From an uncultured Acidimicrobiales bacterium (GTDB lineage: Bacteria; Actinomycetota; Acidimicrobiia; Acidimicrobiales; SZUA-35): a DNA stretch of 64,000 nucleotides. Shown piece by piece: positions 30,856-58,319 of this stretch. How positions within the stretch are numbered: position 1 is the first letter of the stretch; each line of letters opens with the position of its first letter. Both the position numbers and the translations under genes were made by a program. The stretch spans positions 1-64,000 of the forward strand of contig CALAJQ010000023.1 in NCBI GenBank assembly GCA_937922785.1, read 5' to 3'. The notes under the pieces are model-generated. The model was not told the origin of the DNA. It was given only the letters and a program-made list of their open reading frames with translations, and did not search any database.

Positions 30856-30973
30856 GCTCTTAGAGCGGAAAACACCTACTCGCGAGACCCTAGGTCTATG
30901 CTTGCGGGGGATGAAAACAGTTCGAGTCCGGTCTGACAAGACATTGTCGACCTCAAACACAAATGGAGGGGTT

Positions 30974-32164
30974 ATGCGAAAGCGTTCCCTAGGAATATTC
31001 GGCGTCTTGCTCGCATTCAGTTTGTTTGCTGCTGCCTGCAGCGACGACGGTGCAACAGACACAACAGAGGCAACGGATGCACCCGCTGCCACCGACGCTC
31101 CGGACACCACCGAAGCGATGGAAGATGACACAGATACCCCAGATGACACCGAGGCCATGGAAGACGCCACCGGCGTCAAAGCCTGCCTAGCGACTAGCTC
31201 AACCGGTGTTGATGACCAAAGCTTCAACGCCAGCGCCTGGGAAGGCGTCGAGGCCGCCATGGCTTCGGGCGTCGCGACCAGCGAGTCAATCTTCTTGGAG
31301 CCTGGCGAAGTTTCTCAGTATCAAGCTGTGATCGATCAGTTCGTAGACCAAGGTTGCGAGCACATCGTGACCGTTGGCTTCGACTGGGGCGAGACAACCG
31401 CTACCAACGCTCTTGCCCAAGAAGGCATCACCTGGACCATGATCGACAACATCTTGAGCGACCCAGATACCTTCGCTCCACTCCAGTTGCCGAACGTGCG
31501 TGAGCTCGTCTACCAAACCGACGAAGCAGCCTTCGCTGCCGGTTACCTAGCTGCAGGCATGTCACAAACCGGCGTGCTTTGCACCTACGGCGGCGGCAAC
31601 TTCCCCACCGTGTCAATCTTCATGGACGGCTTCACTCGTGGTGCAGCCCACTACAACGAAGTTAAGGGCACTGATGTAACCGTGCTTGGCTGGGACTCAG
31701 ACGCTGGCGACGGCATCTTCACCGGTAGCTTCAGCGACATGGGCCTAGCCCGCAGCACTGCCGATGGCCTGTTCCAGGAAGGCTGCGACATGATCATTCC
31801 AGTTGGCGGCGCAATCAACTTGCCAGCTGGTGACGCGATCAACGATCTAGGAATCGACGCAGCACTTATCGGCGTTGACTCCGACGCCTTCTTCGCAATG
31901 GATCAGCAGTACGCATCGCTGTGGCTCACCACGGTAGAGAAGAAGATCGCTGACTTTGTAACAGATTCAATTTCCGAGCACGCTGCTGGATCTTGGGCAG
32001 CTGGCTCAGTTGTCGGCACCTTGGCCAACGGCGGCGTTGGTCTTGCCCCTTATCACGACTGGGACGACCGAGTGTCTGACGAGCTCCGCGGTGAAGTTGA
32101 GCAACTGCTTGCCGACATCACTGACGGAACCGTTAAAGCGGCTTTCACTCCAGTCGGTTACTAA
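30974..32164 (+). CDS. BMP-family (purine nucleoside-type) substrate-binding lipoprotein
   Basis: 396 aa from the ATG at 30974, preceded by GGAGGGG 2 nt upstream. MRKRSLGIFGVLLAFSLFAA leads into a lipobox Cys (AAACSDDG), then a Thr/Glu/Asp-rich linker to about residue 70. The BMP/PnrA domain starts KACLATSSTGVDDQSFNASA and keeps EPGEVSQYQ, CEHIVTVGFDW and IGVDSDAFF. Family members bind nucleosides or related purine and riboflavin compounds and deliver them to the ABC permeases that follow. It is the first gene of a four-gene operon. Confidence 0.92.
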   Translation: MRKRSLGIFGVLLAFSLFAAACSDDGATDTTEATDAPAATDAPDTTEAMEDDTDTPDDTEAMEDATGVKACLATSSTGVDDQSFNASAWEGVEAAMASGVATSESIFLEPGEVSQYQAVIDQFVDQGCEHIVTVGFDWGETTATNALAQEGITWTMIDNILSDPDTFAPLQLPNVRELVYQTDEAAFAAGYLAAGMSQTGVLCTYGGGNFPTVSIFMDGFTRGAAHYNEVKGTDVTVLGWDSDAGDGIFTGSFSDMGLARSTADGLFQEGCDMIIPVGGAINLPAGDAINDLGIDAALIGVDSDAFFAMDQQYASLWLTTVEKKIADFVTDSISEHAAGSWAAGSVVGTLANGGVGLAPYHDWDDRVSDELRGEVEQLLADITDGTVKAAFTPVGY

Positions 32165-32177
32165 CTAGCTAGTTGCG

Positions 32178-32213
32178 CTGGCCGCCTATCGGGTAATTCC
32201 GATAGGCGGCCAG
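32178..32213 (+). terminator. 15-bp stem-loop between binding protein and ATPase (partial terminator)
   Basis: CTGGCCGCCTATCGG (32178-32192) pairs perfectly with CCGATAGGCGGCCAG (32199-32213) across a 6-nt loop. It is followed by only CCATTTG, so read-through is likely. In ABC operons such hairpins protect the binding-protein message and keep it more abundant than the downstream genes. Confidence 0.7.
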
Positions 32214-32256
32214 CCATTTGATATCCGGTCTTTGATATCGGTCTGAAAGGGTCGTT

Positions 32257-33774
32257 TTGGAACTTGCACTCTCGGGCATCACCAAGCAGTTTCCCGGTGT
32301 GCTAGCCAATGACGACGTAAACCTTGAAGTCTCTGGTGGGGAGATTCTTGCCCTTCTTGGCGAGAACGGTGCTGGAAAAAGCACCTTAATGAACATCCTT
32401 TACGGGTTGTACACACCAACTGCTGGCGAGATCCGGATCGACGGTACGGCGAGGCAGTTTGACGGGCCGGGCGACGCGATCGAAGCGGGCATAGGCATGG
32501 TTCACCAGCACTTCATGCTGGTTCCTGTGTTTACAGTTGCCGAGAACGTCATGTTGGGCAATGAGCCCACAAAGCGTTTCGGATGGCTGGATCTGCAACG
32601 GGCTCGTAAGACCGTTCGCGAGATCTCGAGCCGCTACAACTTAGACGTAGACCCCGACGCAATCATTGAAGACCTACCAGTCGGGCTGCAGCAACGCGTA
32701 GAGATAATCAAAGTTCTCGCCCGTCAAGCAAACGTTCTGGTGTTCGACGAACCAACGTCTGTTCTAACCCCCACCGAAGTTGTGGGCTTCGTCGAAATCA
32801 TGAACGGTCTGAAGGCCGATGGGAAGGCCATCATCTTCATCAGCCACAAGCTGACAGAATCTCTCGAGCTCGCGGACAGGATTGTCATCATGCGGCGGGG
32901 CCGGACCGTGGCCGAGGTGACGCCCGCCAACATGGACGAGGAGAAGCTGGCCGAGCTGATGGTCGGGCGACCAGTTGACCTTGTTGTCAACAAGACGCCG
33001 GCCAAACCAGGCGAGGTGGTCCTGTCCGTTGAGAATCTTGTTGTCCTTGACGATCGCGACAAACGCATGGTTGACGGTGTGTCTTTCGAAGTCGCTGCGG
33101 GCGAGATCGTTGGCATCGCCGGAGTGCAGGGCAACGGCCAGACAGAAATTGTCGAAGCCATTACGGGCCTACGCCCATCACTAGGTGGTTACGTCAAGCT
33201 GAAGGGTGAAGACATCACAACTGCTTCTGCCCGCTCGATTCATAAGCGCAATGTTGCCCATGTTCCCGAAGACCGCCAGCGAAGCGGCCTCGTCTTGCCA
33301 TTTTCGGTTACCGAGAACATCGTGCTCGACTCTTATTACGAAGAGCCGATTTCTAACGGGGTCCGAATGGATTGGCCCGCCGCCCAAGAGCAGGCGACGC
33401 GTCTTGTAGAACAGTACGACGTGCGCACTCCCGGCATTGACGTCGCTGTGTCCACTTTGTCTGGAGGGAACCAGCAAAAGGTGATCGTAGCCAGGGAGTT
33501 CGATCGCGACGTCACGTTTGTGGTGGCGTCTCAGCCCACCCGGGGCATCGACGTTGGCTCGATCGAATACATCCACTCGCAAATCGTTGGAGAGCGAGAT
33601 CAGGGTGCTGCAGTCCTTATCGTCTCTTCTGAACTAGAGGAGATCATGGCTCTGTCGGACCGAATCATCGTGATGTTCGAAGGACGGATAGCCGGAGAGT
33701 TCGATAGCTCCGCAACACGGACCGAGATTGGTCTAGCAATGCTTGGAAGCCGACCAGAGGAGATCACGTCATGA
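32257..33774 (+). CDS. BMP-type ABC transporter ATPase with two nucleotide-binding domains
   Basis: 505 aa from a TTG start with GAAAGG upstream. Domain 1: Walker A GENGAGKST (35-43), Walker B VLVFDEPT, degenerate signature VGLQQ. Domain 2: degenerate Walker A GVQGNGQTE, a good signature LSGGNQQK and Walker B VVASQPTRGID. One complete and one degenerate site is typical for sugar/nucleoside-type double ATPases (YufO/NupB-like). It energises import through the two permeases; its stop overlaps the next ATG. Confidence 0.92.
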   Translation: MELALSGITKQFPGVLANDDVNLEVSGGEILALLGENGAGKSTLMNILYGLYTPTAGEIRIDGTARQFDGPGDAIEAGIGMVHQHFMLVPVFTVAENVMLGNEPTKRFGWLDLQRARKTVREISSRYNLDVDPDAIIEDLPVGLQQRVEIIKVLARQANVLVFDEPTSVLTPTEVVGFVEIMNGLKADGKAIIFISHKLTESLELADRIVIMRRGRTVAEVTPANMDEEKLAELMVGRPVDLVVNKTPAKPGEVVLSVENLVVLDDRDKRMVDGVSFEVAAGEIVGIAGVQGNGQTEIVEAITGLRPSLGGYVKLKGEDITTASARSIHKRNVAHVPEDRQRSGLVLPFSVTENIVLDSYYEEPISNGVRMDWPAAQEQATRLVEQYDVRTPGIDVAVSTLSGGNQQKVIVAREFDRDVTFVVASQPTRGIDVGSIEYIHSQIVGERDQGAAVLIVSSELEEIMALSDRIIVMFEGRIAGEFDSSATRTEIGLAMLGSRPEEITS

Positions 33775-35009
33775 CCGAATCTGGCAGCACCCCGAAGCCC
33801 GACAACGCCGATAAATCGAGTCAGCCCGACCCAGACCAGCCGAATTCGGAAGACTTTCTGAAGAACGCCACAGGCGTAGGTTCCTCGCTCAGGCAAGCAT
33901 TGCTGATTCCCGCCCTCGCCCTGCTTTCGGCTCTTGTTATTGGCGCACTCATCATCGCAGTCACCGATGTTGACAGTTTGAAGCTGTGGAGTTCTGATCC
34001 AGGTGAAGCGTTCAGCTCTACTCTTCGGGGAATCGGCAATGCCTACAAGGCGCTCTTTGTTGGTTCGCTAGGTTCGCGGCGAGCCATCACAGAGACCCTG
34101 TTCGCTGCAACGCCTTTGATCCTTGCGGGTCTTGCAGTTGCGGTTGGCTTTCAGGCTGGCCTGTTTAACATTGGGGCCAACGGCCAGATGCACATTGGTG
34201 GTCTGGTTGGCTTGTGGGTTGGGTTCAGCGTCTCAGCACCAACGATCATTCATATCCCGCTTGCCATCTTGGGCGCCATCGTTGGCGGAGCGCTTTGGGG
34301 CGGACTCGCCGGCTTGTTGAAAGCGCGCACCGGAGCGCACGAGGTCATCACGACCATCATGTTGAACTTCATAGCGCTGTTCATGGTCGACTACTTGCTA
34401 ACTGGAACACTGTTCCAGGCCCAAGGCAGGAACGACCCAATCTCCAAGCGCGCCGACACGACTGCACAGTTCCCAACGCTTTTTGACAACTATCGGGTTC
34501 ATATCGGTTTCCTAGTGGCCCTTGCAGCAGTCTGGTTTGTCTGGTGGCTGATGTATCGGTCCACGATCGGTTTCGAGTTCCGCGCTGTCGGGGCAAACCC
34601 GGACGGAGGCAAATATGCAGGCATGAACGTTGCCTGGGTCTATGTCGCTGTAATGGCGGTATCAGGAAGCCTGGCTGGTTTGGCCGGTGCTAACCAGGTA
34701 CTTGGGCTTGAGCCATACCGAGCATTCTCTGGATTTGCCGGCGACACAGGATTTGATGCAATCGCACTGGCGCTCTTGGGCCGGTCCCACCCAGTAGGCG
34801 TCCTTTTCGCTGGCTTGTTGTTTGGCGGGCTTCGTGCCGGTGGTCTTCAGATGCAAGGCACGGCGGGAATCCCGGTGGATCTCGTCCTGGTATTGCAAGC
34901 ACTCATTATTGTGTTCATCGCAGCGCCTGAGTTAGTCAAGGCGATATTCCGAATCAAATCCGTTGATGACGGAGCCAAGAGCACTGTGTCAACCGGGTGG
35001 GGCTCATGA
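33771..35009 (+). CDS. BMP-type ABC transporter permease, subunit 1
   Basis: 412 aa; ATGA overlap with the ATPase gene. After a charged N-terminal tail (about 1-40) there are about nine membrane helices. Family motifs are FNIGANGQMHIGGLVGLWVG, ARTGAHEVITTIMLNFIAL, FRAVGANPDGGKYAGMNVAW and FDAIALALLGRSHPVGV, matching YufP/NupP-type nucleoside permeases. It pairs with the following permease. Confidence 0.92.
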   Translation: MTESGSTPKPDNADKSSQPDPDQPNSEDFLKNATGVGSSLRQALLIPALALLSALVIGALIIAVTDVDSLKLWSSDPGEAFSSTLRGIGNAYKALFVGSLGSRRAITETLFAATPLILAGLAVAVGFQAGLFNIGANGQMHIGGLVGLWVGFSVSAPTIIHIPLAILGAIVGGALWGGLAGLLKARTGAHEVITTIMLNFIALFMVDYLLTGTLFQAQGRNDPISKRADTTAQFPTLFDNYRVHIGFLVALAAVWFVWWLMYRSTIGFEFRAVGANPDGGKYAGMNVAWVYVAVMAVSGSLAGLAGANQVLGLEPYRAFSGFAGDTGFDAIALALLGRSHPVGVLFAGLLFGGLRAGGLQMQGTAGIPVDLVLVLQALIIVFIAAPELVKAIFRIKSVDDGAKSTVSTGWGS

Positions 35010-36286
35010 CCGCCCAGATCGCCGCTGGCGCAACCGAAGAATCACTTCACCGTGCAACTCCTGAACAGCGCAGAGCACGGACGGTTGGCATTCTTCTGCT
35101 ACTTCTGGCCGCTTTTGTGCTTTGGATCTTTGGGCTCGGCGTTGAGAGCACCGACACATCAACGTTTAACCTGTCACTTCCAGGAGCCAAGTACGAGAAC
35201 ATCAAGTGGGAGGTCGACTCTCGCATGCTGTCGGCAATCTTGGCTGCTGTTATTGCGTTTCTGGGCGGGCTTGTACTCAGACGCACATACCTTCGGTGGA
35301 CCAACGTTGCGCTCGCTATCAGTCTTGCCTTAACTGCATTGTCGTTCCTTACTTGGGCCGCCGCTGGCAAGTCATTCAGCCTTGTGGGCATGCTGGTTTC
35401 AACGGTTGTTCTGTCCATTCCGGTAACCCTTGGTGCACTTTCTGGACTCATGTGTGAACGAGTGGCCGTGATCAACATCTCGATCGAAGGGCAGTTATTG
35501 ACCTCTGCCTTTGTGGGAACAATCGTGGGTTCGGCCGCCAACATCTGGATCGGATTTATCGCCGCAGTCTTGGTAGGCGCTTTGCTGGGGGCGGTTCTTG
35601 CTGTGTTGGCAATCCGCTATCACATCGACCAGATCATTGCCGGAGTGGTCATCAACATCTTCGCGCTCGGGCTGACATCCTTCCTTGCTCGCAGAGTCCT
35701 AACTGCCGCGCCAGAATTGAACTCGCCTGGCCGTTTCGCTTCAGCCAAGATTCCATTCTTCGGCGACATCCCGGTTATCGGCCCAATGTTCTTTGACCAA
35801 AACATGTTTGTTTACGCCACGTTTATTCTGGTCATCGTGATCCACTTTGGTCTGTTCTATACCCGTTGGGGTCTCCGATCGCGATCAGTTGGTGAGCATC
35901 CAAAGGCCGCAGACACCGTTGGCATAGACGTACACAAGACTCGCTATCGGAATGTGATTCTTGGCGGCTGTATCGCCGGTCTCGGCGGCGCCTTTCTCAC
36001 GTTGTCCCAGGTTTCACGCTTCGAGGAAAACCTTACGGCTGGCATCGGCTTCATTGGTCTAGCGGCCATGATCTTCGGCCGCTGGATGCCCTTCGGAGCC
36101 CTGGCGGCCGGCTTAGTGTTCGGGTTTGCCCGAGCATTACAACAGAAGCTTGGAATCCTCGGAACCCCAATTCCTTCTGAGTTCCTTTCGATGCTTCCCT
36201 ACATCGTGACGATCATCGTGGTGGCTGGAGTGGTTGGCAAGAGTCGACCACCAGCAGCCGACGGCCAGCCCTATATCAAGCAGTAG
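35006..36286 (+). CDS. BMP-type ABC transporter permease, subunit 2
   Basis: 426 aa from the ATG at 35006, which overlaps the preceding stop (ATGA); a GTG at 34997 is possible. Motifs are MCERVAVINISIEGQLLTSA, YHIDQIIAGVVINIFALGL, LRSRSVGEHPKAADTVGIDV and FIGLAAMIFGRWMPFGAL, as in YufQ/NupQ-type permeases. The last 11 bp overlap the convergent GST gene, so this operon and the demethylase-like operon meet tail to tail. Confidence 0.92.
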   Translation: MTAQIAAGATEESLHRATPEQRRARTVGILLLLLAAFVLWIFGLGVESTDTSTFNLSLPGAKYENIKWEVDSRMLSAILAAVIAFLGGLVLRRTYLRWTNVALAISLALTALSFLTWAAAGKSFSLVGMLVSTVVLSIPVTLGALSGLMCERVAVINISIEGQLLTSAFVGTIVGSAANIWIGFIAAVLVGALLGAVLAVLAIRYHIDQIIAGVVINIFALGLTSFLARRVLTAAPELNSPGRFASAKIPFFGDIPVIGPMFFDQNMFVYATFILVIVIHFGLFYTRWGLRSRSVGEHPKAADTVGIDVHKTRYRNVILGGCIAGLGGAFLTLSQVSRFEENLTAGIGFIGLAAMIFGRWMPFGALAAGLVFGFARALQQKLGILGTPIPSEFLSMLPYIVTIIVVAGVVGKSRPPAADGQPYIKQ

Positions 36287-36914
36287 CTGCGGGAAAGATT
36301 CCAGGCATCACCACAAACCCGGGAATTCTTTTGACCCTATCGGTCCAGCGGCGAATGGCTGGGTAAGGCTGACTAGAGACGCCGCCTTCTTCCGACAGCA
36401 TCACGTCGGGGAAGATCGCTATGTCTGCAATTGTCGGGTGGTCACCGGAGCAAATCCAATCCAAGCCCTCTTGCTCGCGAAACCAAAGGTGTTCTTCAAG
36501 TACGCGAAACAGCTTGTGGGCACCTGACCTGCACTCATCAATGTCAAACGGGTATCCCAGCGAATCATGAAGCCTTGCGGCAGAGGCAGTATTTGTTGTG
36601 CCTTCTGCAAACAGCAACCATTGTGCTGTCTCGCCGATCAGTTCGGGATCACTGGTCCGATACCAGTTGCCCGTCGGGTCATATTTGGCGGCGAGGTAGA
36701 TAAGGATTGCGTGAGCGTCGCGCAGTACAAATCCCCCATCATCAATCACCGGGATATGGCCAAGTGGGTTGACCTTCTTGAACTCTTCGCCTTTGTGCTC
36801 ACTGCCGGGAAAGAAATCGACCAGCACCGATTCAAACTCAACACCCAGAATGCTCATCAGGAGGCGTTGCTTATAGCAGTTGACCGAAAGCTCAAAGTCA
36901 TAAAGTTTGATCAT
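36276..36914 (-). CDS. Glutathione S-transferase-like protein (NdmE-like)
   Basis: 212 aa from the ATG at 36914, whose A is shared with the upstream TGA. The thioredoxin-like N-domain starts MIKLYDFELSVNCYKQRLLM and contains NPLGHIPVIDDG and a DAHAILIYLA segment; a helical C-domain carries DHPTIADIAIFPDV. In the Pseudomonas putida NdmCDE complex a GST-like subunit (NdmE) is needed structurally for the demethylase. Gene order, overlap and size here match, so a structural rather than detoxifying role is inferred. Actinobacteria usually lack glutathione, which supports that view. Confidence 0.82.
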   Translation of the reverse strand: MIKLYDFELSVNCYKQRLLMSILGVEFESVLVDFFPGSEHKGEEFKKVNPLGHIPVIDDGGFVLRDAHAILIYLAAKYDPTGNWYRTSDPELIGETAQWLLFAEGTTNTASAARLHDSLGYPFDIDECRSGAHKLFRVLEEHLWFREQEGLDWICSGDHPTIADIAIFPDVMLSEEGGVSSQPYPAIRRWTDRVKRIPGFVVMPGIFPAATA

Positions 36915-38629
36915 CAGAGATCCAAAACCAGACGACTCGATTTGGCTCTGGACACACACGTCATCAATCGCTTGCCAGTTCGTTTCTCGGTGTCGTTCAG
37001 ATAGACATCTTGATGATCAGGCTCCCCTTCGATCAAGTCGACCCCACATGTTCCACAGACGCCCTGTTCACACGATGAGGCCATCGAGATACCGGCGTTT
37101 TTCAGGACCTCCAGAATACTCTCACCGGGGCGAACCGGCAAGGTCACCGCAGAGCGGGCCAATGCGATTTCAAACTCCGAGCTTTGATCTTGTTGGGTCG
37201 GGTTGGCAAAGTATTCAAAGTGCACTGCATGGTCGGGCCACTCATTAGCACTGGCCGTAGCCCGCGCTGCGGTGAGCATGGGAGCAGGCCCGCACACGTA
37301 AAGATGTTTAGCGTCCGTATAGCTTGAAATCAGCCTTTGCAGTTGAGTGACTGTTTCGTCGGGATCAAGCGCTAGATGGTGAGTAACATTCGTGCCGAGT
37401 GCTTCCAATCGGTCGGCAAAAGCGATGTGATTCTGGGACCGGACGAAGTGATGCAACTCATATGGGAGCCCCTGATGATCGAGCGCCTGAGCCATGGCCA
37501 AGATTGGCGTGAGCCCAATTCCGCCGGCGATCAAAAGGGTGTGAACCGCATCTCGCCGCAATGGGAATCCGTTCCGAGGCTGAGATACCAACAGCTCATC
37601 ACCCACGACTACTTCTCCGTGCAGTGTGCTTGACCCGCCCGTCGACGTCGGATCCAGCTTGACGCCAATTGTGTATGCGTCAAGCTCTCCGGGAGCGTTC
37701 ACAACCGAGTACTGCCGCACCAGTGCATTCGGAAGGTGGAGGTCTATGTGCGAGCCCGGTTTGACAGTGGATAGTTGGCCTGACACTGCCTCAAGCTCAA
37801 AGCCAACCACATCGGTGGCCGTGTTCCACCTGCGACGGACGCGAACTGGCACAGCCGCTTGTCGATTTGTTGCCGAGCTGAGACCGATTGACACCTCGAC
37901 GGCGGGGTGAACTTTGAATGCGGCTGGTTCGGGTGCAGCCTGAACGCCTGCCGACTTTTCGATGCCGTCGCGAACGGCGCCTAACTCTGCGGAGTAGAAG
38001 CGAAGTACATCGATCTTCGCTTCGTCATCGGGCCGCTCGCTCAAGACTCCACGAACTACACAACGACGTTCGTCCACTGGCTGCACAAACAGCACAAGGT
38101 CAGAGTGCTTCGTGCTGTCTGCCAATGTTGGACACCCAATTTCAATGCGTTCCAAGTGTGAGATCGTCGTCTCGCTAGTGACCCACAAGTCAATTGGCCG
38201 AAGCGGGAAGGCTTGGCCGTCGTCCAGCACGTCGAGAACTTCCAGGTCAGCAAGAGAAGTCTCACTGTCTAGGGTGGTCCATATGAGACCGTAGCGTTCG
38301 ACAGCAACGTAGCTTCGAGCGCATGAAGAATGAGTGTTTGCATCTGCGGGGTGAGCGGGAATGTAAGTCACGCCACCGGTGCGATTGGCGTAACGCCACC
38401 CGTGGTACTGGCACACCAACTCCGCACCATCGTTTGTGCCAACCGAAAGCCTGACTCCGCGATGGAGGCACCGATTCTCCCAGATGTTTACAAAGCCATC
38501 GTCAGAACGCCAGACAGCAAATTCATATCCAAACAGTTGCCCCTGGTAGACGTGTCGGTCAACCAGATCACTGCTGCTGGCGATCGGATGCCAACCTGAC
38601 TTTGTGCCTGACAGAACCGTAACGCTCAT
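36914..38629 (-). CDS. Rieske-PDR reductase fusion (NdmD-like)
   Basis: 571 aa. An N-terminal Rieske domain has CLH (Cys54, His56) and CQYHGW (Cys73, His76). Residues 120-235 look like a shrunken oxygenase catalytic domain without iron ligands. Residues 260-570 are a phthalate-dioxygenase-reductase-like module: FMN motif RQYSVV (305-310), NADH site GGIGLTP (369-375), CGP (446-448) and a plant-type 2Fe-2S centre with Cys520, Cys525, Cys528 and Cys558. A reductase with an additional Rieske cluster is the defining feature of NdmD (about 588 aa). It would pass electrons from NADH via FMN and two clusters to the partner oxygenase. Its ATG overlaps the upstream stop by 4 nt. Confidence 0.88.
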   Translation of the reverse strand: MSVTVLSGTKSGWHPIASSSDLVDRHVYQGQLFGYEFAVWRSDDGFVNIWENRCLHRGVRLSVGTNDGAELVCQYHGWRYANRTGGVTYIPAHPADANTHSSCARSYVAVERYGLIWTTLDSETSLADLEVLDVLDDGQAFPLRPIDLWVTSETTISHLERIEIGCPTLADSTKHSDLVLFVQPVDERRCVVRGVLSERPDDEAKIDVLRFYSAELGAVRDGIEKSAGVQAAPEPAAFKVHPAVEVSIGLSSATNRQAAVPVRVRRRWNTATDVVGFELEAVSGQLSTVKPGSHIDLHLPNALVRQYSVVNAPGELDAYTIGVKLDPTSTGGSSTLHGEVVVGDELLVSQPRNGFPLRRDAVHTLLIAGGIGLTPILAMAQALDHQGLPYELHHFVRSQNHIAFADRLEALGTNVTHHLALDPDETVTQLQRLISSYTDAKHLYVCGPAPMLTAARATASANEWPDHAVHFEYFANPTQQDQSSEFEIALARSAVTLPVRPGESILEVLKNAGISMASSCEQGVCGTCGVDLIEGEPDHQDVYLNDTEKRTGKRLMTCVSRAKSSRLVLDL

Positions 38630-39495
38630 CGCCCATCACTAACAGCAGGCAACACGCCGTAGCGAAGACCCAACCCGCTTAGCCACCGACGATAGGCAAT
38701 GGAAGTTTTGTCGGAGCGGATCGGCGTTTCAACGGCGGGGTCAAGCGGCAGCCGTTTTGGGTGCTGGTTCTCCAGAATGGGTTTGTCTTGGCTGAAGATC
38801 AATTGTTGAAAGGCCTGAATCTGGCGATCATTACTTTCATCGTCGAGAAGGGACAGAACTAAGTGCGCCCTAGTGTTCTCCTCATCGACGGCCTGGCCGA
38901 AAATCACTATGGCGTCCCGCCTTGATTCGTCGATCGGACTCGACTTGTACAGAATCGAGCAGTACGGATGCGGTACCCGATAGGTGTATTCCATCAACAT
39001 TCCGCCCAGAGCGTTCAAAGCGCCCATCGGCTGGAAGAACTCACAACCGGTAGCTAACACCTCCTTGCCATCGTTCACAATCTCTACGGTGTAGTCCTTA
39101 ACTTCAGTGTGGGGTTCGATTCCGAGATAGCCGGTGTGCACATACGGAAAGTGACCCATGTCTAGAAAGTTCTCTACCGCTCGTGGAGCCGACGTGTGTA
39201 CGCCAACGCTCCCGGCCCAAACGTTGTGGCGGTCCGGCTCGTGAAACTCGTCGAACTCGAACAGCTCATCGGGTGGCGATCCCAACGAGGTCCACAGAAC
39301 CCCATATGCGTGCATCACCGGCAACTGATGTTGGGTTCCTCGCCACGCTTGAGGCAAACCCTGCGGACTCATTGCGTAAGACAACGGCTCGCCAAGCAGG
39401 CGGGTCTGGTACTCAACGCCGGCGGCTAGTTCGACAGTAGCGGCAACGGGATGCCACATGTCCAGGACGACTGGATCCGAGCATCTTTGCATCAT
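38626..39495 (-). CDS. Rieske-oxygenase catalytic subunit lacking the Rieske cluster (NdmC-like)
   Basis: 289 aa. The mononuclear iron site is intact: ENFLDMGHFPYVH (Asp112, His115, His120) and the third ligand Asp237 in SQDKPILENQ. The N-terminal Rieske region is cut to about 57 residues (WHPVAATVEL to GVLWTSLG) and contains no CxH or CxxH, so it cannot hold a 2Fe-2S cluster. NdmC of the 7-methylxanthine N7-demethylase has this property and length and takes electrons from the Rieske domain of NdmD. The C-terminal DKTSIAYRRWLSGLG is typical of the family. The actual substrate is unproven; N-methylated purines are the leading guess. Confidence 0.85.
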   Translation of the reverse strand: MMQRCSDPVVLDMWHPVAATVELAAGVEYQTRLLGEPLSYAMSPQGLPQAWRGTQHQLPVMHAYGVLWTSLGSPPDELFEFDEFHEPDRHNVWAGSVGVHTSAPRAVENFLDMGHFPYVHTGYLGIEPHTEVKDYTVEIVNDGKEVLATGCEFFQPMGALNALGGMLMEYTYRVPHPYCSILYKSSPIDESRRDAIVIFGQAVDEENTRAHLVLSLLDDESNDRQIQAFQQLIFSQDKPILENQHPKRLPLDPAVETPIRSDKTSIAYRRWLSGLGLRYGVLPAVSDGR

Positions 39496-40893: not shown

Positions 40894-41889
40894 CTAGGCC
40901 CAGTCGAGCCGGTATTCCAGGTTATGGCCGACCTGCTCGGAGTACTCCTGGATCGACTTGCGGGCCAGCTTTAGAGTTACTGACGCTGGCAGCAGCCCGA
41001 TGATGCGACCAAACGGCGTTCGCTCTTCAGCGACAGCCGCCTTCTTTGCTTCGGGGAATGCGACCTCCACCTGAGCCTGGCGTTGGCTGGCGTGGTCCAG
41101 CAGATCAGACAGCGTTTGGAACATTTGCATCAAGGGGTCGGCTTGATGCGTTGACCAGTTCGCCGCGGGCATGAAATCGACGAAGTGCATCAGGTGATAG
41201 TTCAAGTCAATCCACAAGTCTTCTGCGTTGATCGTGAGCGGCTCATTGTCAATGACCCGGTAGCAGTGCAAGGCTTGAAGGTCGCCAATTCGATGCATGT
41301 TGTCTTGAAGTTCTTGCACCAGATCGTTGTTGTAAAGCAGCCGAAGGATCGACGGAAACGCCTCAACGTGGACCGCTTCGAAATCAGTTAGCAGCGCCTT
41401 TAGCTTGGGTATTTTGCTGGCTTCCATGGCGAACGTGTTGGTGGCGGTACCCAATATCGAATGCAGTAAGGCGACGTTCGGCGAGTGCTGGGGGTAGTAA
41501 CGAGCTGCGTAGTCGTGACAGAACACAAGGTGCTCCAGGAATGTGCCGTCAGCGTGTTCCATACTGAAGTCGCATTCCTGCACCATGAAGTCGATGAGTC
41601 GCTGATCAATCTTTGGTGCGGGCTGGGCTAGCTCGCCCTCAATATATGCCGCCTCAATTTGAGCTGCGACGGCCTTGTCCCACACGGGCTCCTTTGCCAG
41701 CTTCTCATCCATGAACTTGCGGGCGACTCCGGCAAGGCCACCAAAGATCGTGCGGCCCATGTCGAAGTTCTTCATGCGCTCAACACTTACGCGGCCGGCG
41801 TGATCAAACGCCCCGCCCTGTGAGATTGCAGCCTTGCGTTGCAGGTTGAGTGTTGCCTTTAGCTCGGCACTGTCAGTGCTCGTGTTCAT
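40894..41889 (-). CDS. Uncharacterised helical protein, possibly HD-like
   Basis: 331 aa from the ATG at 41889 with GGGGG just upstream; an in-frame GTG lies at 41898. The central part FLEHLVFCHDYAARYYPQHS and NVALLHSILGTATNTFAM resembles the H...H-D and LLHSxxGT pattern of DUF6817-type HD-like proteins. Conserved-looking His residues could bind a metal. The N- and C-terminal thirds are helical with no recognised family. It is monocistronic. The assignment is tentative. Confidence 0.6.
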   Translation of the reverse strand: MNTSTDSAELKATLNLQRKAAISQGGAFDHAGRVSVERMKNFDMGRTIFGGLAGVARKFMDEKLAKEPVWDKAVAAQIEAAYIEGELAQPAPKIDQRLIDFMVQECDFSMEHADGTFLEHLVFCHDYAARYYPQHSPNVALLHSILGTATNTFAMEASKIPKLKALLTDFEAVHVEAFPSILRLLYNNDLVQELQDNMHRIGDLQALHCYRVIDNEPLTINAEDLWIDLNYHLMHFVDFMPAANWSTHQADPLMQMFQTLSDLLDHASQRQAQVEVAFPEAKKAAVAEERTPFGRIIGLLPASVTLKLARKSIQEYSEQVGHNLEYRLDWA

Positions 41890-57037: not shown

Positions 57038-57622
57038 ATGGCCGCACCCGCTGCAGTAGAAGCCCTGAGGGCACAGGGATCTGGCCTTGGTCTTGCCAAT
57101 GGCGCTGTTCACCTGGTGAACCACGATCCACGCTGGAGTTCCTACTTTGCTGAGCTAGCAAGTGAGATATTGGTTGCGATTGACCACAGCCGAGCTCAAG
57201 TTGAACACGTTGGATCCACTTCGGTACCCGGTCTCAGCGCCAAGCCGTTGTTGGACATCGCCGTCGGAATACCCCAGCCAATCGACAATGAGGCAGCTAT
57301 CACTGCGCTCGAACCGATCGGCTTTGAGTTTCAGCAAGATCTTGGCATCTACGGCGGCCTCTTCTTCACCGTCTCGGCATCACCGACTTCAAGAGTTGCC
57401 CACCTCCACGTCGTTGATATCGACGATTTCCAATGGCGTTGGTACCTGGCTTTCCGCGACGGCCTGCGATCGGACCCTAGGCTGGCAAGCGAGTACGAAA
57501 CAGTCAAACAAGCGGCCGCCCAAGCAAATCCCGGAGACCGAGATGCCTACACCAAGGCGAAGTTCGATTGGGTCTTGGCAACAGTGAATCGACTCGACAG
57601 ATCGGTCACTCAAACAGATTGA
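57038..57622 (+). CDS. GrpB/UPF0157 family protein
   Basis: 194 aa. The family core VEHVGSTSVPGLSAKPLLDI (about 67-86) belongs to a nucleotidyltransferase-like fold. HLVNHDPRWSSYFAELASEI and HLHVVDIDDFQWRWYLAFRD are further conserved blocks. Function is unproven; some relatives are linked to coenzyme A metabolism or resistance. It overlaps the convergent PhyH remnant by 13 bp. Confidence 0.88.
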   Translation: MAAPAAVEALRAQGSGLGLANGAVHLVNHDPRWSSYFAELASEILVAIDHSRAQVEHVGSTSVPGLSAKPLLDIAVGIPQPIDNEAAITALEPIGFEFQQDLGIYGGLFFTVSASPTSRVAHLHVVDIDDFQWRWYLAFRDGLRSDPRLASEYETVKQAAAQANPGDRDAYTKAKFDWVLATVNRLDRSVTQTD

Positions 57623-58319
57623 TAGATCAGCGGCCACTTTCGGCTTTGCATTGGGGCGCCGACAGTGAACGCTTCATCTTCATCTGGAAGCAGCGCCGGA
57701 TCCTGGAAGACACCCTGCCTTAGGGTCATCCGGGCATCGGTGCCGATGTAGCGAGCTGAGTAGGCGACCCGCCGCTTGTTAGGAGAATTGTTGCCTCCTG
57801 AAGAGTGAACCGCGCGTGAGTGAAACATCACTGCGTCACCAGGTTCGTAACTGAACTCAAGCACGCCGTGAGCCTCTGGGTCTTCATGAAATGGCGGTGG
57901 AGGATGATCAACAAACTGATCGCTGGCGTCGACGGCCAACGCGCCTCGTTCCCCTACATCTTGGCTCAACGACTTGCCGTCGAAGCCGTTCGGTCGGTAG
58001 AACTTGTCCGCCCGATGGCTGCCCGGCACAAATTTCAGAGCGGCAGTTTCGGGTGTGCAGTGCACAAGGCTTAACCAGAATGAAACGATGTGTTCGCCTT
58101 CTACCGGCCAGTACGGAACGTCCTGATGCCAATAGTGATCATCAACTGGAGTCGCAGGGTCGAACACGAAGACATGATCGAAGAAGAACCGGGCCGACTC
58201 TGACTCCATAGCCCGAGCAGCATTCGGACGGCCTGCTCTGGTCCAATCAGGCCCGGCAGCTTGACCACGCCCTGGCGGCGATAGGTCGCAAGCTCTTCAT
58301 CAGTTACGGGCCTAACCAC
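57610..58319 (-). pseudogene. Broken phytanoyl-CoA dioxygenase-like (PhyH) gene
   Basis: The N-terminal frame starts at 58319 with MVRPVTDEELATYRRQGVV and runs through LPGLIGPEQAVRML, typical of PhyH enzymes. Near 58215 coding sense moves to the next frame (AARAMESESARFFFDHVFVF), which continues to the stop at 57610 with the iron ligands intact: HYWHQD and FHSRAVHSSGGN. About 60 residues normally found between these parts are missing. An internal deletion with loss of frame is the simplest reading; a separate start at 58209 could still give a shortened 199-aa protein. Confidence 0.65.

Follow-up and report, generated by a model that had tools for sequence, protein, structure and literature searches.

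The NdmCDE system of Pseudomonas putida CBB5, a 7-methylxanthine N7-demethylase, consists of a Rieske-less oxygenase, a reductase with an extra Rieske domain, and a glutathione S-transferase (GST)-like subunit, according to the cited portion of a 2015 review (PMC4408171). The same portion counts homologous ndmCDE clusters of unknown function in 18 organisms, which beyond the closest few belong mainly to Sinorhizobium and Mesorhizobium. As of May 2026, no structure of this complex had been solved, according to the sections cited here (PMC13237722). NdmA and NdmB, which are also N-demethylating Rieske oxygenases of methylxanthines, carry a Rieske domain of their own. So does HpxD, a purine-linked Rieske oxygenase. 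The stretch analysed here (the window) comprises 64,000 nucleotides of contig CALAJQ010000023.1 from an uncultured Acidimicrobiales bacterium and encodes, on the minus strand, three genes termed C, D, and E. By architecture and predicted electron path, the trio is very probably an NdmCDE-type split Rieske non-heme iron enzyme, and purine N-demethylation is its probable role. The genes and their parts are as follows.

38626–39495, minus strand: C, NdmC-like oxygenase subunit without a Rieske cluster, 289 residues (VanA_C match, AlphaFold2 model)
39286–39456, minus strand: C residues 14–70, Rieske-domain shell without cluster-binding loops (colinear with D 13–50 and 113–122; strands present in the model)
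39151–39153, minus strand: C iron ligand His115 (126 of 127 aligned C sequences)
39136–39138, minus strand: C iron ligand His120 (127 of 127)
38785–38787, minus strand: C iron ligand Asp237 (127 of 127)
36914–38629, minus strand: D, NdmD-like Rieske-reductase fusion, 571 residues
38345–38593, minus strand: D residues 13–95, Rieske [2Fe-2S] domain with C54xH56...C73xxH76 (Pfam, 7e-17)
37949–38203, minus strand: D residues 143–227, apparent remnant of an oxygenase catalytic domain without iron ligands (profiles, model, and hidden Markov model)
37202–37867, minus strand: D residues 255–476, flavin and NAD domains of the phthalate dioxygenase reductase (PDR) type (Pfam, PDR alignment)
36917–37177, minus strand: D residues 485–571, plant-type [2Fe-2S] ferredoxin domain (Pfam Fer2)
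36276–36914, minus strand: E, NdmE-like GST-family protein, 212 residues

A first-pass annotation, made from the sequence alone, had described three overlapping minus-strand genes with the NdmCDE architecture and gene order in a likely Acidimicrobiia host. All of this is borne out. The three open reading frames (ORFs) lie end to end in the order C-D-E, with an overlap of 4 nt between C and D and a stop/start overlap of 1 base between D and E. The 212-residue length of E follows from the ATG at 36914, which is used by homologues; an upstream GTG would give 227 residues. The placement of the host is supported by another genome from its family (G013, L010), which is the Acidimicrobiales metagenome-assembled genome of locus L059.

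C matches the VanA_C catalytic domain (E 5.5e-19) and no Rieske family in a Pfam search at E 0.1. The iron site lies at His115, His120, and Asp237, as had been claimed, and Asp112 is kept in all 127 aligned C sequences. The CxH..CxxH motif, which the first-pass annotation had found missing from C, occurs in a single sequence of the 127, the divergent paralogue L108_3432. Counted in this set are the window itself, one fused C, and five relatives from its family, two of which are identical to named loci; C-family genes shorter than 240 residues and a full-length Rieske oxygenase from the P. putida plasmid locus L024 were dropped. A C of an Acidimicrobiaceae contig (L097:5101–6000) is the only member with Arg at the His115 position. 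The AlphaFold2 model of C is of high quality (pLDDT 90.1, pTM 0.89) and superposes end to end on SxtT over 272 residues (Z 28.9, root-mean-square deviation (rmsd) 2.3); its Z scores with NdmA and NdmB are 22.4–23.1.

D shows the Pfam order Rieske (7e-17), NAD_binding_1 (7e-7), and Fer2 (6e-14), and residues 262–571 align with PDR, which agrees with the proposed reductase bearing an extra N-terminal Rieske domain in addition to flavin, NADH, and plant-type 2Fe-2S modules. The Rieske motif is present in 79 of 82 D-family genes; the exceptions are a fusion and two genes with short calls. The model of D (pLDDT 80.8, pTM 0.57) is weak around the Rieske loops, with blocks under pLDDT 60. The idea that the cluster missing from C would be supplied by D is supported.

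Actinobacteria mostly contain mycothiol instead of glutathione. E belongs to the GST family by Pfam and stands in the same gene row as C and D, confirming the GST-like third gene of the earlier annotation. In the alignment, the GST motif 'ESNAI' of the best solved match becomes 'RDAHAI' in window E, and an N-terminal-domain loop is missing in three of the seven actinobacterial E rows (L095, L104, and L107). Both the motif change and the loop loss fit the structural role proposed for NdmE in the cited parts of two papers (PMC13237722, PMC4408171).

A single Rieske α-subunit seems to have left complementary remnants in C and in the N-terminal ∼230 residues of D. BLASTP of C against D 1–255 returned colinear matches at C14–51/D13–50 (E 2e-4), C64–73/D113–122 (0.07), and C189–259/D171–248 (0.006), along with further chance-level pieces, one of which is out of order. 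The hhalign alignment of the C and D profiles (98%, E 2.7e-13) contains two large gaps of opposite sense: the cluster-binding loops are missing from C and the iron-ligand segment is missing from D. SxtT and SxtDIOX (GxtA) are the top solved match of both profiles (∼1e-42); unlike C and D, they are one-piece α-subunits with both metal sites, and they act on a different substrate. The D profile matches them chiefly via its Rieske domain, with a second, weak stretch in the catalytic domain. Foldseek matches the D model to SxtT across 292 columns (E 5e-14, TM 0.52 relative to target length), but the rmsd is 9.3; the VIA-align rows shown for this model are reductases, with no oxygenase among the 50, and the oxygenase match of D comes from Foldseek and the sequence profiles. 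At E 0.01, a hidden Markov model (HMM) of the D remnant picked up 26 of 125 C proteins but no control sequence (125 reversed, 375 shuffled, and 1075 neighbouring proteins). Weighing against the shared origin, the hits do not include window C itself (E 13). An earlier HMM figure of 105 of 127 C proteins was set aside because the D training set contained the Variovorax C-reductase fusion. The data are read as an α-subunit duplication followed by loss of one metal site per copy, presumably in that order. Because C and D would be complementary remnants of one ancestral α-subunit, each is predicted to be inactive when alone. If true, complementary loss after duplication would explain in evolutionary terms how the reductase came to carry the Rieske cluster.

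A scan of species genomes with a 17-row C alignment confirmed at least 525 relatives, of which the best 80 were kept. These 80 genome loci, eight annotated plasmid loci, and the window make up 89 loci, whose genes were predicted from codon usage and sorted into families by similarity. A ninth plasmid locus (Roseicitreum L027) was left out, having a C-like gene with no D or E beside it, and L120–L122 were not counted, because a gene caller trained on genes of the window overlooked known C or D genes there. Of the 89 loci, 88 have a called C, 81 a D, and 78 an E, usually arranged C-D-E, a grouping beyond chance; the single locus without a called C is Variovorax L028, where C is fused. The 80 genome loci come from Alphaproteobacteria, Granulosicoccaceae, Arenicellales, and Actinomycetota, the last represented by Acidimicrobiia, Nocardioides, Pseudonocardia, Streptomyces, and Saccharopolyspora. 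Within the window's own family, 6 of 39 genomes (its own included) have C, and D adjoins C in the five relatives checked. Among 396 genomes sampled across the phylum, 1, the window's own, gave a D match at 1e-60, where up to three candidates were scored in the genomes shown. The first-pass annotation had suggested an undescribed demethylase or oxygenase with its own substrate; that idea is supported, but with at least 525 C relatives and homologous ndmCDE clusters in print the trio is not exceptional.

Comparison of C and E with NdmCDE was made via the trio of P. putida plasmid locus L024, NdmC and NdmE of CBB5 being known by description. L024 can serve as an Ndm-like anchor, since its ferredoxin domain scores 123.8 bits with NdmD against 63.2 bits with the next solved chain. 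All three window subunits align with those of L024 (identities: C 44%, D 36%, E 50%), and rhizobial trios are closer (C 58–59%, D 51–53%, E 67%); the best full-trio identities to the window, rhizobial or actinobacterial, are ∼60% for C, 55% for D, and 73% for E. The highest C identity overall is 70%, to the solo C of L030. On a quick C tree, in which 45 of 124 inner branches are open, the window clusters with the Acidimicrobiia loci L030 and L031 (SH-aLRT 100) and the L024 C forms a long branch elsewhere. The window ferredoxin domain scores 77.6 bits with CYP116B46, 75.9 with NdmD, and 75.7 with PDR. NdmD appeared as the nearest solved ferredoxin domain to the whole family with profile A8, a result lost once the P. 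putida plasmid row was removed; in the family profile without L024, NdmD is no nearer than CYP116B46 or PDR. Thus the trio shares the architecture and homology of NdmCDE, yet appears to lie outside the caffeine branch. The first-pass annotation had named best homologues outside the Ndm clade with unrelated pairing as the outcome that would speak against it: the nearest trios are indeed rhizobial and actinobacterial, but the three-way pairing is conserved.

Several related loci depart from this pattern. The Rhizobium brockwellii plasmid (L025:11339–13487), and likewise L029, has a standalone Rieske protein (∼215 residues), a Rieske-less oxygenase, and a GST in a row that continues with an amidohydrolase and a BMP transporter; no reductase is annotated in the cluster. 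A Variovorax paradoxus plasmid (L028:11307–14454) encodes a BMP binding protein, a standalone Rieske protein, an oxygenase-reductase fusion of 604 residues, and a GST; the cited part of a 2025 review states that no self-sufficient Rieske system has been identified (PMC12445004). At L057:10891–12100 of Pseudonocardia dioxanivorans CB1190, D is seemingly cut short; its Rieske half runs into an OHCU-decarboxylase-like piece, and the reductase part was not found at this locus. Two or more C genes occur in 30 of the 89 loci, and pSymA of S. meliloti 1021 (L023:4040–14438) combines three C paralogues with one D, one E, a BMP transporter, GlyA, and FrmA. Such C paralogues may differ in methyl position.

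In the window, a BMP-family transporter (30911–36286), on which the first-pass annotation was silent, stands tail to tail with E.

30911–32164, plus strand: BMP/PnrA-type substrate-binding protein (Pfam Bmp, 3.5e-31)
32257–33774, plus strand: ABC transporter ATPase with two ATPase domains (Pfam)
33771–35009, plus strand: ABC transporter permease 1 (BPD_transp_2)
35006–36286, plus strand: ABC transporter permease 2 (Pfam), convergent with E and ending 11 bases inside it

The window differs from NdmCDE in having such a transporter beside the trio; the close Sinorhizobium and Mesorhizobium trios share it, although there it is divergent and accompanied by a GntR gene, and additional C paralogues and a downstream guaD or frmA are frequent. 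As a control, the 80 genome loci were compared with 40 stretches, each 20 kb long, taken from three actinobacterial genomes, using the same markers in tblastn at 1e-20. The BMP binding protein was found in 42 of 80 loci and in 0 of 40 control stretches, as was the permease. Guanine deaminase (11/80) and the class III formaldehyde dehydrogenase FrmA (12/80) were also absent from all 40 control stretches, and any purine-type marker occurred in 47 of 80 loci against 3 of 40; 10 of the 17 actinobacterial loci have one. With looser gene families over the 89 loci, 57 had a purine-type marker, 52 BMP, 17 a guanine-deaminase-type amidohydrolase, and 13 FrmA, followed by FrmB (7), NCS2 (5), and XdhB (4). 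FrmA comes immediately after E in 12 of its 13 loci. Gains and losses on the quick C tree amount to 15 changes for BMP, 9 for the amidohydrolase, 7 for FrmA, and 3 for NCS2. Relatedness among the loci and the shortness of many contigs mean that these counts are not independent trials.

Some individual operons are telling. In Nocardioides immobilis (L044), a PbuX-family permease (placed by similarity), XdhA, XdhB, XdhC, GuaD, C, D, and E lie on one strand. In Streptomyces (L095), Pseudonocardia (L104), and Saccharopolyspora (L107), C-D-E is followed by PbuX with an OHCU-decarboxylase-like stretch, assigned by Pfam in L095 and by tblastn or a weak model match in L104 and L107. On Acidimicrobiaceae contig L097, an amidohydrolase and C-D-E stand beside a pseudouridine-kinase-like gene (below cut-off), an Indigoidine_A gene, which we take to be of the PsuG type, an aldolase, and RpiB; L030 and L031 combine C with a BMP transporter and with ribokinase-like and nucleoside hydrolase genes. 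Curated cut-offs are passed by FrmA of L036, FrmB of L032, XdhB and XdhC of L044, and PbuX of L095 and L104; XdhA of L044 falls below its own. Of five amidohydrolases scored, two (L022 and L069) exceed the guanine deaminase cut-off, and the one from L044 misses TIGR02967 by one bit and passes PRK09228. Other contigs of the window genome encode a guanine deaminase homologue (E 2e-123, 48%) and several genes resembling xanthine dehydrogenase (XDH). The first-pass annotation had noted the trio to be without NdmA/B. No ndmA- or ndmB-like gene is found among the window ORFs, and the genome has one C (E 1e-136), its other Rieske oxygenases being weakly similar (E 4e-16 or worse) and on other contigs; the claim stands to that extent, and one of the latter may act like NdmA/B.

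The architecture, the conserved metal ligands, the remnant domains recognised by sequence and fold, and the gene neighbourhoods together suggest a reaction scheme with a predicted electron path and stoichiometry. Electrons would pass from NADH to the flavin of D, on to its ferredoxin domain and its Rieske cluster, and then, by way of the interface between the subunits, to the mononuclear iron of C, probably bridged by Asp112. At this iron, O2 would be activated and an N-methyl group hydroxylated, so that the methyl leaves as formaldehyde; E would be a GST fold co-opted for a structural role. The adjacent BMP-family transporter may import the N-methylated purine base, or a nucleoside that is later cleaved. 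Candidate substrates are a methylated guanine (e.g., 7-methylguanine from RNA turnover) and 7-methylxanthine, and the demethylated product would feed guanine deaminase and XDH. At the two positions of the NdmA 'QL' mutant, the alignment gives Q230 and F234 in window C, N and F in NdmA, and Q and L in NdmB; this third residue combination fits another methyl position and proves none.

Several observations weigh against purine demethylation by the window trio. The window transporter is convergent with the trio and outside its operon, its ATPase and permeases best match a putative vitamin B6 transporter family (NCBIfam, below cut-off), and no purine enzyme stands beside the trio in the window. No close relative has a known substrate. 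L030 and L031, the nearest C proteins, have no D or E within 8–10 kb on each side, and the D genes of these genomes are on other contigs. No marker is found in 32 of the 89 loci, and all 16 Devosia loci (including L065, L067, and L073) lack a purine-type marker near C. The amidohydrolases of L025 and L097 fail the guanine deaminase cut-off. NCS2 permease (4/80 against 1/40) and XdhB (4/80 against 3/40) are not above control, and their counts were dropped as purine support, the operons alone being used. Finally, the loci are mutually related and are the best 80 of at least 525, and the control genomes belong to other lineages than most of the loci.

Alternatively, the window trio could be a plain 7-methylxanthine N7-demethylase, carrying out the last step of caffeine or theobromine breakdown as in CBB5, now in an actinobacterium. 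The common three-part architecture and the alignment of L024, NdmD-like in its ferredoxin domain, with all three window subunits speak for this reading, which is unlikely: L024 is more distant from the window than other trios are, the ferredoxin profile of the family without L024 places NdmD no nearer than CYP116B46 or PDR, and no ndmA- or ndmB-like gene adjoins the trio. Moreover, guanine deaminase or XDH genes stand beside relatives of the trio, unlike in NdmCDE, and a xanthine product would not need the recurring guanine deaminase. Purine catabolism is a better reading of the trio than caffeine breakdown. A purine neighbourhood would also suit hydroxylation of the purine ring without demethylation, by a molybdenum-free xanthine hydroxylase like HpxD. 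HpxD-annotated records are ∼28% identical to the catalytic part of C, no lower than the 22–26% of NdmA, so identity cannot decide between the two. Ring hydroxylation is nevertheless very improbable, given FrmA right after E in 12 of the 13 loci that have it and in none of the control stretches, the XDH genes already included in the L044 operon, and a window C that lacks the Rieske domain of HpxD.

The trio could instead demethylate a non-purine N- or O-methyl compound, such as a plant betaine, another N-heterocycle, or a xenobiotic, its purine neighbours being incidental or lineage-specific. The loci without markers and the B6 family as best named transporter match are in keeping with this, and saxitoxin-type compounds are the substrates of SxtT and SxtDIOX, the nearest relatives of solved structure, to judge from the titles of their entries. 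The recurrence of the BMP transporter and guanine deaminase in differing gene orders, with 15 and 9 changes on the C tree, and their absence from every control stretch make a non-purine substrate a rather poor bet. A search of the literature on trigonelline catabolism gave no lead, and the Rieske enzyme of riboflavin catabolism is, in the cited part of the source, a four-part dioxygenase of another architecture (PMC12746152).

Within purine N-demethylation, methylguanine is a possible main substrate, although the balance is against it. We tentatively propose a widespread route for methylguanine from RNA, consisting of import of the base or nucleoside by a BMP or NCS2 transporter, N-demethylation by a C-D-E complex in which two complementary, half-inactive copies of an α-subunit join a GST scaffold, guanine deaminase, and XDH, from which NdmCDE would be a late specialised offshoot; the odds on this pathway are again less than even. 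Among the literature matches listed, which covered few subscription papers, none described demethylation of 7-methylguanine by bacteria or placed a Rieske enzyme next to guanine deaminase, and 7-methylguanine in Streptomyces was used solely as an inhibitor in the cited part of one study (PMC7674942). If true, the proposal brings the GST-dependent split Rieske oxygenase of caffeine-eating pseudomonads into the purine catabolism of many soil and marine bacteria and names a testable route for methylated guanine.

Two further minus-strand genes of the window were noted. A 331-residue protein near C (40894–41889) has no Pfam match at 1e-5. A short PhyH-family gene at 57610–58209 (199 residues, Pfam 1.7e-22) showed no link with the trio; some bacterial PhyH relatives are 2'-O-methyl nucleoside demethylases, as stated in the cited part of a recent report (PMC12709175).

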